From Methylotenera versatilis 79 (GTDB lineage: Bacteria > Pseudomonadota > Gammaproteobacteria > Burkholderiales > Methylophilaceae), in NCBI RefSeq assembly GCF_000384375.1, contig NZ_ARVX01000001.1, positions 620,001 to 684,000 of the forward strand: a DNA stretch of 64,000 bases, written 5' to 3'. Each line of letters opens with the position of its first letter. Positions within the stretch are counted from its first letter, which is position 1. The notes below the pieces were generated by a model. The model had not been told where the DNA came from. It made no database searches and was given only the letters and a program-made list of their open reading frames with translations. Positions 3,221 through 7,374 of the stretch are shown here, piece after piece. A program made the translations under genes and the position numbers.

Positions 3221-4384
3221 ATGAATGAATACCTATTTACCTCAGAATCTGTTTCTGAGGGCCATCCAGACAAACTCGCAGACCAAGTTTCAGACAGCAT
3301 TTTAGATGCTATTTTAGTGCAAGATCCAACCGCACGCGTGGCTGCGGAAACCTTGGCTAATACTGGTTTAGTCGTATTAGCAGGCGAAATCACAACTACA
3401 GCCAACGTTGATTATATTAAAGTAGCGCGCGATACCATTAAACGCATTGGTTACGACAACACAGAATACGGCATCGACTACAAAGGTTGTGCCGTATTAG
3501 TTGCTTACGACAAACAATCGCCAGACATCGCACAAGGCGTAGATGGCGCGCAGGATGACCCGCTAGACCAAGGCGCAGGCGACCAAGGTTTAATGTTTGG
3601 TTATGCCGTTGATGAAACACCGCAGTTGATGCCGTTACCAATCTGGTTAAGCCACCGTTTAATGGAACGCCAAGCGCAACTGCGTAAAGATGGTCGCTTG
3701 CCGTGGTTACGTCCAGATGCCAAAAGTCAGGTAACTGTGCAATATGTTGACGGTAAACCATACAAAATTGATACGGTTTTAGTTTCTACGCAGCATTCGC
3801 CTGAAATCAGCTTAGAAGATATTCGTGAAGCGACGATTGAGGAAATTATCAAACCAATGTTGCCTAAAGAGTTGATCAAAGGTGATATTAAGTTTTTAGT
3901 GAATCCTACAGGTCGCTTTGTCATCGGCGGCCCACAAGGTGATTGCGGTTTAACAGGCCGTAAAATTATTGTCGACACCTACGGTGGCGCTGCACCTCAT
4001 GGCGGCGGTGCATTCTCTGGTAAAGATCCTTCAAAAGTAGACCGAAGCGCGGCTTACGCAGGTCGTTATGTGGCAAAAAATATTGTGGCTGCAGGTTTAG
4101 CCTCACGTTGCTTAGTACAAGTCAGTTACGCGATTGGTGTTGCACAACCGACTTCAGTGATGGTTGAAACTTATGGAACTGGTAAGGTTTCCAATGAAGT
4201 ATTAACGCAATTAGTGCGCGAACATTTTGACTTGCGCCCTAAAGGCATTGTGAAAATGTTAGATTTATTACGTCCGATTTACACTAAAACCGCAGCTTAT
4301 GGCCACTTTGGCCGTGATGAGCCAGAGTTTACATGGGAAGCGACAGATAAAGCTGCAATATTGAAAGCAGCTGCAGGGCTATAA
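3221..4384 (+). CDS. metK: S-adenosylmethionine synthetase
   Basis: 387 aa, normal MetK length. It makes SAM from methionine and ATP. The N-terminus reads [21 protein letters not shown], with the catalytic His of the EGHPDK motif. Later motifs include [12 protein letters not shown] and the glycine-rich loop [15 protein letters not shown] that closes over the active site. The 5' region is 159 bp long and shared with dapF; no SAM riboswitch is recognisable there. It is followed by a hairpin and the separately promoted riboswitch-ahcY unit, so synthesis of SAM and removal of SAH are adjacent but separately controlled. Confidence 0.97.
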
Positions 4385-4443
4385 TGCCAGTTTTATGAAT
4401 GAAATCATTGCTTTACAAAAGCAGTGGTTTCATTATAATGGCA
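4385..4443 (+). other. Long hairpin after metK overlapping the ahcY promoter
   Basis: An inverted repeat of 15 bp, two of the pairs G-U in RNA, has arms 4399-4413 and 4419-4433 around a TACAA loop. It is flanked by an outer TGCCA/TGGCA pair (4385-4389/4439-4443). There is no T-run behind it, so it does not look like a standard intrinsic terminator. It may protect the metK 3' end or weaken readthrough. The right arm overlaps the predicted ahcY promoter. Confidence 0.6.
4412..4439 (+). promoter_or_regulatory. Predicted sigma-70 promoter of the riboswitch-ahcY unit
   Basis: The -35 box TTTACA (4412-4417) and a perfect -10 box TATAAT (4434-4439) are separated by 16 bp. The expected start near 4446 lies about 20 nt before the riboswitch aptamer, as expected for a riboswitch leader. 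This is a prediction from box match only. Confidence 0.6.
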
Positions 4444-4466
4444 AGCTAATTTTTAGTAGTATTGAT

Positions 4467-4597
4467 AACCGAGGAACGTTGCGAGGTTTGTTTCATACAA
4501 ATCCCAGGCTCGGTTTACAAGTTAAATCAAAATATTGGTTAACTTGTAACGGCGTTCACCTAATTTAAACCGTGCCAGACACGGGATTTGGGTGAAC
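4467..4597 (+). promoter_or_regulatory. S-adenosylhomocysteine (SAH) riboswitch with expression platform
   Basis: The aptamer spans about 4467-4560. P1 pairs AACCGAG (4467-4473) with CTCGGTT (4509-4515). P2 pairs 4485-4490 with 4498-4503. P4 pairs ACAAGTTAA (4517-4525) with TTAACTTGT (4539-4547). The pseudoknot pairs GAACG (4474-4478) with CGTTC (4553-4557). The conserved CCGAGGA, CAGGCTCGG and AACGGCG..CACC blocks match the known SAH riboswitch class, and the pseudoknot differs from the common GAGCG/CGCTC as a paired change. Downstream, GGTGAAC (4591-4597) can pair with GTTCACC (4554-4560), which would break the pseudoknot. In this class SAH binding turns ahcY on. The exact output here (termination or translation) is not clear, because no U-run follows the hairpin directly. 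Confidence 0.93.
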
Positions 4598-4677
4598 AAA
4601 AACCGTTATAGTTTTTTCAAGCTTAATCCGGTTTGCTCTCAATATCCCCAGTCTGGTCACACTTCAAGGAATTGAAA

Positions 4678-6087
4678 ATGAACACTGTGACTGATGTCAA
4701 AGACTATGTGATTGCTGATATTAATTTAGCAACATTCGGTCGTAAAGAAATCGCTATTGCTGAAACAGAAATGCCAGGTTTAATGGCTATTCGCGAAGAG
4801 TACGCAATTGCACAACCACTTAAAGGCGCGCGCATCACTGGCTCGTTACACATGACCATTCAAACTGCTGTACTGATTGAAACGCTTAAAGATTTGGGCG
4901 CAGAAGTACGTTGGGCATCATGTAATATCTACTCTACACAAGACCATGCTGCGGCTGCGATTGCTGCTGGCGGCACACCGGTTTTCGCGGTAAAAGGCGA
5001 AACATTGACCGAATATTGGGATTACACGCATCGCATTTTTGAATGGACTGATGGCGGCTATTCAAACATGATTTTAGATGACGGCGGCGATGCGACATTA
5101 TTGCTACATCTTGGTACGCGCGCTGAAAAAGATTTATCCGTTGTTTCTAAACCGACTAGCGAAGAAGAAATCTGTTTATTCGATGCCATTAAAGCAAAAC
5201 TAAAAACAGACCCAACTTGGTATTCAACACGTTTAGCGCAAATTATTGGCGTAACTGAAGAAACCACCACTGGCGTGCACCGCTTGTATCAAATGCATAA
5301 AGAAGGCAAATTGGCTTTCCCAGCAATCAACGTAAACGATTCAGTGACTAAATCAAAATTCGATAACTTATATGGTTGCCGCGAATCATTAGTCGATGCG
5401 ATCAAACGCGCAACAGATGTGATGATTGCAGGCAAAGTAGCTGTTGTTGCTGGTTACGGAGATGTGGGTAAAGGTTCTGCACAAGCATTGCGTGCATTAT
5501 CTGCCCAAGTTTGGGTGACAGAAGTTGATCCAATCTGTGCGTTACAAGCAGCAATGGAAGGTTACCGTGTCGTTACAATGGATTATGCTTGTGAGCATGG
5601 TGATATTTTTGTGACTGCAACAGGCAATTACCACGTGATTACGCATGACCACATGGCAAAAATGAAAGATCAAGCAATTGTGTGTAATATTGGTCACTTC
5701 GACAATGAAATTGACGTTGCTTCACTTGAAAAATATGAGTGGGATGAAATCAAGCCACAAGTGGATCATGTGATTTTCCCTAATGGTAAAAAAATCATTC
5801 TGTTGGCACAAGGTCGTTTGGTAAATTTAGGTTGCGGTACAGGCCATCCAAGCTACGTGATGAGCTCAAGCTTTGCCAATCAAACGATTGCGCAAATCGA
5901 GTTATTTACGCGCCAAGCGGATTATCCAGTCGGTGTTTATGTATTACCAAAACATTTAGATGAAAAAGTCGCTGTGTTGCAATTGAGAAAATTAAATGCA
6001 CAATTGACAAGATTATCTGAAACGCAAGCGGCTTATATTGGCGTTTCGCAAGATGGTCCTTTTAAGCCTGATACTTATCGTTATTAA
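4678..6087 (+). CDS. ahcY: Adenosylhomocysteinase (SAH hydrolase)
   Basis: It hydrolyses SAH reversibly to adenosine and homocysteine, using tightly bound NAD, and so removes the product inhibitor of methyltransferases. The reading frame is open from a TTG at 4633, but ATG 4678 is preferred: it has AAGGA at 4666-4670, gives [18 protein letters not shown] and yields 469 aa, the common proteobacterial length. Visible motifs include [28 protein letters not shown], the NAD-binding [21 protein letters not shown], and the C-terminal KPDTYRY that supplies the lysine and tyrosine contacts to NAD of the neighbouring subunit. The gene is preceded by the SAH riboswitch and followed by a small membrane-protein gene and metF. 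Confidence 0.98.
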
Positions 6088-6127: not shown

Positions 6128-6472
6128 ATGAAACTACTCATCGGATGGTTGCTAAATGCTTTGGCATTATTGGCTGTTGCATACTTTGTACCGGGTATTC
6201 ATGTGTCTAGCTTTACCTATGCCTTAATCGCGGCAGCGGTAATCGGCTTAGCCAATATACTGATCAAACCTATTTTATTGATACTGACATTACCTGTGAC
6301 TATTTTGACATTAGGTTTATTTATCTTTGTGATCAATGGCTTAATGTTTTGGCTGGCAGGTTATTTTTTACAAGGTTTTGATGTAAAGACAATTACTGCT
6401 GGCATTATTGGCGCGATTGTTTACAGTATTATTTCGTGGATTTTAAGCGCAATTGTGACTGACAAAAAATAG
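6128..6472 (+). CDS. Phage holin superfamily IV membrane protein (YvlD/PF04020 type)
   Basis: 114 aa, almost entirely hydrophobic, with about four transmembrane helices and the family phrase ANILIKPILLILTLPVTILTLG in its centre (quoted here in two parts: ANILIKPILLIL and TLPVTILTLG). Such proteins are called phage holin family in databases but are ordinary chromosomal genes with no known role. It sits between ahcY (40 bp) and metF (62 bp) on the same strand, a setting I recall from other betaproteobacteria, so it is probably co-transcribed. A purine-rich stretch (AAAAAGGAAG) at 6111-6120 serves as ribosome binding site. There are no other phage genes here, so it should not be read as a prophage remnant. 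Confidence 0.85.
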   Translation: MKLLIGWLLNALALLAVAYFVPGIHVSSFTYALIAAAVIGLANILIKPILLILTLPVTILTLGLFIFVINGLMFWLAGYFLQGFDVKTITAGIIGAIVYSIISWILSAIVTDKK

Positions 6473-6534: not shown

Positions 6535-7374
6535 ATGAAGCAAAATATTCCATTAAGTTTTGAGTTTTTTCCGCCAAAAACGGCGGAAGGCATCGCCAAT
6601 TTACGCGAAACACGCACACAACTAGCCAAATTCAATCCTGAATTCTTCTCAGTAACCTTTGGTGCAGGCGGTTCTACTACTGATCGTACTAAAGAAACCG
6701 TATTTGAGATTCAAGCAGATGGCTACCAAGCGGCGCCGCATATTTCTTGTATTTCTTCCAGCAAAGATGAGATTCGCGCATTACTCTCAGCTTACCAAGC
6801 TAAAGGCATCAAACGTTTAGTTACCCTGCGCGGAGACGTGCCATCGGGCGAAGTGAGTGTGGGTGATTTTAAATATGCGAATGAACTGGTGAATTTTATC
6901 CGCCAAGAAACTGGTGATTGGTTTCATTTGGAAGTTGCTGCTTACCCAGAGTTTCACCCAGAAGCGTTATCTGCCGCGAAAGACATGGCTAACTTTAAAC
7001 GTAAAGTAGACGCTGGCGCTGATTCTGCCATCACGCAATATTTTTACAATGCAGATGCTTATTTTAGATTTGTCGAAAGTTGTGACTCGGACAGCATCAC
7101 CATACCGATTGTGCCAGGCATTATGCCAATTTATAACTACACACAATTGGCTCGATTCTCTGGCGTTTGTGGCGCGGAAATCCCACGTTGGCTACGTTTG
7201 CGTTTAGAAGCTTATGCAGATGATATGCCGTCTTTACGGGCGTTGGGTATTGATGTGGTGAGCGAACTATGTGAAACGTTACTGAGCTGGGGCGTACCGA
7301 GCTTACACTTTTACACGTTGAATCAAGCGGGTGTCATTTCTAAAATTATTGATAATTTAAACAGTAAAAACTAG
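6535..7374 (+). CDS. metF: 5,10-methylenetetrahydrofolate reductase
   Basis: 279 aa TIM-barrel flavoprotein. It reduces methylene-THF to methyl-THF, the methyl donor for homocysteine remethylation. It opens with PLSFEFFPPKTAEGIANL, carrying the catalytic Glu of the FEFFPPK motif. Further family text includes SVTFGAGGSTTDRT, KRLVTLRGDVPSG, DAGADSAITQYFYN and VPGIMPIYNYTQL. The arrangement ahcY-holin-metF closes the homocysteine, methionine, SAM, SAH cycle together with metK upstream. Transcription ends at the strong hairpin 7397-7443. Confidence 0.96.
   Translation: MKQNIPLSFEFFPPKTAEGIANLRETRTQLAKFNPEFFSVTFGAGGSTTDRTKETVFEIQADGYQAAPHISCISSSKDEIRALLSAYQAKGIKRLVTLRGDVPSGEVSVGDFKYANELVNFIRQETGDWFHLEVAAYPEFHPEALSAAKDMANFKRKVDAGADSAITQYFYNADAYFRFVESCDSDSITIPIVPGIMPIYNYTQLARFSGVCGAEIPRWLRLRLEAYADDMPSLRALGIDVVSELCETLLSWGVPSLHFYTLNQAGVISKIIDNLNSKN

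Follow-up and report, generated by a model that had tools for sequence, protein, structure and literature searches.

Previously uncatalogued co-evolving pairings probably hide the ahcY start site behind the SAH riboswitch of Methylotenera versatilis 79 until the ligand is present

Few metabolites have a riboswitch that is expected to turn genes on; SAH is one of them, and it switches on the genes of this riboswitch class. The class, which a study of 2008 reportedly validated, is represented in Rfam by RF01057 from ahcY, metF and metH leaders of beta- and gamma-proteobacteria, and this model stops at the aptamer. A SAH riboswitch upstream of the ahcY-PF04020-metF operon is known in other Betaproteobacteria (PMC4239095). 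With regard to the output, terminator-type SAH riboswitches such as those of our loci L169 and L138 capture the 3' strand of the pseudoknot helix P4 in a strong downstream stem followed by a long U tract. In the translational cobalamin riboswitch, loop-mediated tertiary pairing governs access to the ribosome-binding site, which is occluded by a kissing loop between L5 and L13 (PMC10907184); the loop belongs to the aptamer, its partner is a hairpin loop and the ligand turns expression off.

We analyzed a window of 64,000 nucleotides from Methylotenera versatilis 79 (contig NZ_ARVX01000001.1, positions 620,001 to 684,000), in which profile searches placed the leader between metK and an ahcY-PF04020-metF operon of the same gene order as above (Table 1). 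An initial annotation had recognised the SAH riboswitch by eye, and the Rfam scan bore this out: RF01057 matched at 45.9 bits, above the gathering cut-off of 37 and with P4 conserved, as the sole copy in the 2.6 Mb genome, and the SAH-recycling genes ahcY and metF lie downstream. Other Rfam families gave only sub-threshold matches over the leader, to microRNA and snoRNA models. Judged by its sequence, the stretch is a genuine SAH riboswitch ahead of the gene for SAH destruction, and matches to the class are found in 114 of 120 Methylophilaceae genomes and 206 of 250 genomes of the order. The aptamer and the operon were already known; the platform variant appears to be new.

Table 1. Features of the metK-ahcY intergenic leader and the flanking genes (positions in the window).
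Feature	Position	Strand	Basis
metK (SAM synthetase), upstream neighbour	3221..4384	+	NCBIfam TIGR01034, 608.8 bits
Sigma-70-like promoter TTTACA-16-TATAAT, about 25 nt 5' of the aptamer	4412..4439	+	11 of 12 matches
SAH riboswitch aptamer, RF01057	4465..4564	+	cmscan, E 2.6e-5
P4 5' strand GAACG	4474..4478	+	Rfam alignment; pairing in relatives
TAACGG, containing the aptamer's conserved strand AACGG; alternative-fold partner 4603-4608	4547..4552	+	folding
P4 3' strand CGTTC, common to the competing hairpin	4553..4557	+	Rfam alignment, covariation
Anti-P4 hairpin, 5' arm GTTCACC	4554..4560	+	pairing, covariation tests
Inner hairpin CCGTG-CCAGA-CACGG	4570..4584	+	arms 4570-4574/4580-4584; loop CCAGA 4575-4579 pairs with 4652-4656
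Anti-P4 hairpin, 3' arm GGTGAAC	4591..4597	+	pairing, covariation tests
CCGTTA, 3' side of the outer stem	4603..4608	+	folding
TTTTTT behind the extended stem; non-conserved, may be a terminator tract specific to this genome	4612..4617	+	sequence, folding
Element, 5' half TCTGG, pseudoknot with the inner hairpin loop	4652..4656	+	pairing, covariation
Element, 3' half GTCACA, pairing with ahcY codons 3-5	4656..4661	+	pairing, covariation
Shine-Dalgarno AAGGA, in the loop closed by GTCACA/TGTGAC	4666..4670	+	sequence
ahcY (adenosylhomocysteinase), ATG 4678-4680	4678..6087	+	NCBIfam TIGR00936, 600.3 bits; start corrected
TGTGAC, ahcY codons 3-5, partner of 4656-4661	4686..4691	+	pairing, covariation, sliding controls
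PF04020 membrane protein, operon member	6128..6472	+	Pfam PF04020, 120.3 bits
metF, operon member	6535..7374	+	NCBIfam TIGR00676, 329.5 bits

The promoter upstream of the aptamer is weak evidence on its own, as the scan found one site against 1.3 expected by chance; its TATAAT is kept at the same place in most of the relatives displayed. An inverted repeat, ATGAAATCATTGC...GCAGTGGTTTCAT (4399-4439), frames the -35 site and occurs once in the genome. In the same-genus loci L016, L022, L039, L068, L102 and L106, its arms differ yet stay largely complementary, with TATAAT directly 3' of them. It may be an operator or a 3' hairpin of metK.

Downstream of the aptamer, the hairpin drawn in the initial annotation was found at the positions given there: GTTCACC is the exact complement of GGTGAAC, and the CCGTG/CACGG stem inside it is likewise exact. 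However, that annotation reported no direct U-run, which is wrong, having overlooked the outer stem TAACGG/CCGTTA and the T tract behind it. Because the extended stem also takes the AACGG strand of the aptamer, the alternative fold would disable more than P4. For the 81-nt segment, the folding energy is -28.7 kcal/mol compared with -14.6 +/- 2.7 for shuffled sequences (z -5.2). The anti-P4 hairpin is part of the minimum free energy (MFE) structure in 69 of 72 distinct relatives, and an AACGG-core pairing similar to TAACGG/CCGTTA in 43 of the 72.

A second conserved site, NYYGGUCACA, lies about 10-30 nt upstream of the start codon in most of the 107 relatives laid out. Here it is TCTGGTCACA (4652-4661), just 5' of the Shine-Dalgarno sequence, and it has two halves. 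The 5' half pairs with the 5-nt inner-hairpin loop, with the loop/element variants CCAGA/TCTGG, CCGGG/TCCGG or CCCGG, CCAGT/GCTGG or ACTGG, and CTAGT/ACTAG. The 3' half pairs with early ahcY codons, in the combinations GTCACA/TGTGAC, GCCACA/TGTGGC, GTCACT/AGTGAC and GTTACA/TGTAAC; the helix of this genome encloses the Shine-Dalgarno sequence and the AUG in a loop of 24 nt. Where the start codon has come to lie within the coding-strand GUG (L022, L039, L098), the element-codon pairing is retained. Since the two halves abut with one G in common, the two helices could stack. The platform outlined initially was thus correct in its hairpin but ended short of this element and its coding partner. Nearest-neighbour folding of 4465-4720 did not choose the element-codon helix (Shine-Dalgarno 0.69 and AUG 0.96 unpaired), and MFE folding was therefore dropped as evidence for it. 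A pairing of the freed anti-P4 strand with TCAC was also considered and rejected: by eye it has only 3-4 bp and is lost where TCAC becomes CCAC.

These pairings were first spotted in the same family data that were later used for testing, namely 79 Methylophilaceae loci giving 53 distinct rows after those lacking a recognisable element or loop were dropped. The alignment blocks were delimited by sequence motifs and not by pairing, except that eight hairpin loops were set manually. In the 53 rows, paired cells amounted to 100% for P4, 93.8% for the anti-P4 hairpin (100% for its inner six pairs), 94.0% for the inner hairpin, 95.4% for loop-element and 96.5% for element-codon. When all 1596 column pairs were ranked by the APC-corrected G statistic, a loop-element pair came top, followed by P4 (A3-B5), the pair A3-D5 between the P4 strand and the anti-P4 strand, two element-codon pairs and anti-P4 B5-D5 as sixth; eighth place went to another loop-element pair and ninth to an inner-hairpin pair. 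Proposed pairs thus make up seven of the best nine, to which the P4-strand/anti-P4-strand pair is added. The high ranks of A3-B5, B5-D5 and A3-D5 together are the pattern expected of helices competing for one strand, so these sequences support P4 and the anti-P4 hairpin as competitors, and the capture of the pseudoknot strand claimed by the initial annotation holds. Its remark that GAACG/CGTTC carries a compensatory change was also right, since P4 shows double changes on five branches.

Single column pairs are suggestive: none reached E<0.05 in the tree simulation (best 0.31; known P4 0.45), in which expected counts never fell below 0.3, P4 included. Per helix, we redistributed the changes of each column over an ahcY-based tree while keeping their number. 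Unpaired cells, observed against expected, were 0 against 11.3 for P4 (p=0.003), 0 against 18.6 for the inner six anti-P4 pairs (p<0.0005), 16 against 46.7 for the inner hairpin (p=0.026), 12 against 64.9 for loop-element (p<0.0005) and 1 against 19.4 for the inner five element-codon pairs (p=0.0015). Moreover, with the partner slid by 1-4 nt, element-codon pairing was at most 60.4% (99.6% in register) and loop-element pairing at most 55% (95.4% in register). A helix with covariation support hence encloses or covers the Shine-Dalgarno sequence and the start codon.

Sequence comparison, then, reveals an aptamer with P4, an anti-P4 hairpin that takes up the 3' strand of P4 and in many cases also the conserved AACGG core, and a loop-element pseudoknot joined to an element-codon helix around the Shine-Dalgarno/AUG region. 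The start-site helix suggests a translational output, and the riboswitch would probably activate ahcY-PF04020-metF, most likely at translation initiation. The initial annotation had guessed at a translational output or a later structure; the translational guess is the favoured one, though the pairings that support it had gone unseen. Without SAH, the anti-P4 hairpin, the loop-element pseudoknot and the element-codon helix would form together, the latter two as an end-to-end stack along an unbroken strand, and this composite would block ribosome entry at the ahcY start. SAH would stabilise P4, the anti-P4 hairpin would be lost and the weakened composite would let ahcY be translated, so that SAH hydrolase would rise when SAH accumulates. 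We infer that the hairpin, the pseudoknot and the start-site helix are stable only as a composite. The coupling from the aptamer state to the start-site hairpin would be indirect and is the weakest step of the model, because formation of the inner hairpin does not depend on the anti-P4 stem and the start-site helix has a loop of 24 nt to close.

A rival reading for this genome is transcription attenuation: the extended hairpin (TAACGGcGTTCACC...GGTGAAC-AAAAA-CCGTTA) with its TTTTTT would be an intrinsic terminator and SAH-stabilised P4 the antiterminator. The stability of the stem and the six T shortly 3' of it fit this reading, and clear terminators are built on the P4 strand in several other families, for example in L169 and L138. 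However, the stem here is broken by a 5-nt bulge, and a terminator consensus scan raised no flag on the plus strand. At least five T within 8 nt past the last pair occur in just 9 of 72 relatives, and L068, the closest relative, has retained the stem and carries TTACAGTTGCAAAC in place of the T tract, so a terminator is ruled out as the conserved output. Attenuation would also give no account of the element and the partners that covary with it. We consider it unlikely for this genome.

The element might instead be used in a sequestor/anti-sequestor manner. With SAH, the platform hairpin would offer its 5' arm and loop to the whole element (GTGCCAGAC x GTCTGGTCAC), drawing it away from the ahcY codons, whereas without SAH the hairpin would lock the arm and the element would block the start. 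This is a direct ON mechanism, its 9-bp helix appears in the MFE structure of the window leader, and GTG x CAC is paired in 91.8% of its cells. Nevertheless, the extended GTG x CAC helix was set aside for its absence of covariation (p=0.47, tree null), and loci with a changed arm (L095 group, L097, L173, L232) restore the hairpin stem and lose the GTG x CAC match, making such a switch improbable. On the other hand, the element-codon match could be a by-product, if GTCACA's GTCAC were conserved for another reason and TGTGAC were fixed by the beginning of AhcY, M-N-T-V-T/A. Both strands are indeed so strongly conserved that shuffled partners still pair at 96.5%, but the observed 99.6% exceeds all 500 shuffles (maximum 98.1%), and paired U-A/C-G exchanges at E5-C4 occur on several branches (p=0.0015 under the tree null). 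In addition, pairing is retained when the start codon or the amino acids shift. We thus regard a by-product as very unlikely and retain the composite that hides the start site as the preferred reading.

This composite differs from the cobalamin riboswitch in that its loop lies in the platform hairpin, its partner is a linear leader strand beside the helix at the ribosome-binding site, and the expected effect of the ligand is activation. It differs from the L169/L138 type in having no conserved U tract and added start-site pairings, and it goes beyond the RF01057 model by the loop-element pseudoknot and the element-codon helix. No description of these two pairings was found in Rfam or the open literature searched; the 2008 class-validation paper, outside that search, could hold part of them.

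A second subgroup of 20 loci has the element TGCTCAGTTT with small variants, which forms five of five pairs with a loop-derived GAGCA in 20 of 20. In one of them, L062, element and loop have changed jointly, TGCTC/GAGCA giving way to TGCCC/GGGCA, and the coding strand has changed to match. The coding partner is less certain in this subgroup, where CAGTT is fully paired with AGCTG or GGCTG in 16 of 20. The layout of the main Methylophilaceae group is also seen in loci labelled Thauera, Azoarcus, Azonexus, Propionivibrio, Accumulibacter, Dechloromonas, Rhodocyclaceae, Hydrogenophilales and further families of the order. In 22 leaders from other betaproteobacterial families, 109 of 110 cells are paired for the inner five element-codon pairs and 96 of 99 for loop-element; as these leaders were hand-picked for likeness and hand-checked by the same eye that found the family pairings, the counts support the pattern and do not estimate its frequency. 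In many of the 22, the helix contains the start codon, GTG or ATG; of the three that have AUG there, two (L235, L259) carry CAU in place of CAC, matching the start. Further families have clear terminators or a Shine-Dalgarno sequence adjoining P4. The P4 strand lies in a strong stem in L169, L138, L168 and L193, and a T tract follows in L169 and L138; in these leaders of other families the same aptamer carries a different platform.

We lean slightly towards the view that a large betaproteobacterial branch (Methylophilaceae, Rhodocyclales-type genera, Hydrogenophilales) shares an undescribed three-part platform, consisting of the anti-aptamer hairpin, the loop-to-leader pseudoknot and a stacked leader-to-codon helix enclosing or containing the start codon. 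If so, part of the ahcY coding sequence would be a component of the riboswitch. Such a platform would account for constraint on the first ahcY codons, and one aptamer would work with at least three platform types inside one bacterial order. As Rfam covers only the SAH aptamer, a platform defined by covariation should be a good guide to the exact bases for compensatory mutants.

Several leaders depart from the common arrangement. L110 (G104) is a second SAH-riboswitch copy in one genome, with only a short reading frame past the expected start. In L091 and L029, ahcY leaders with apparently intact riboswitches, the expected start ATG is changed or missing, possibly through assembly errors or alternative starts. 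Finally, SAH riboswitches are said not to control metK (PMC4239095), whereas those of L133 (1558-2777), L135, L241 and L250, from two other families of the order, lie directly upstream of metK as judged from the translated sequence alone.
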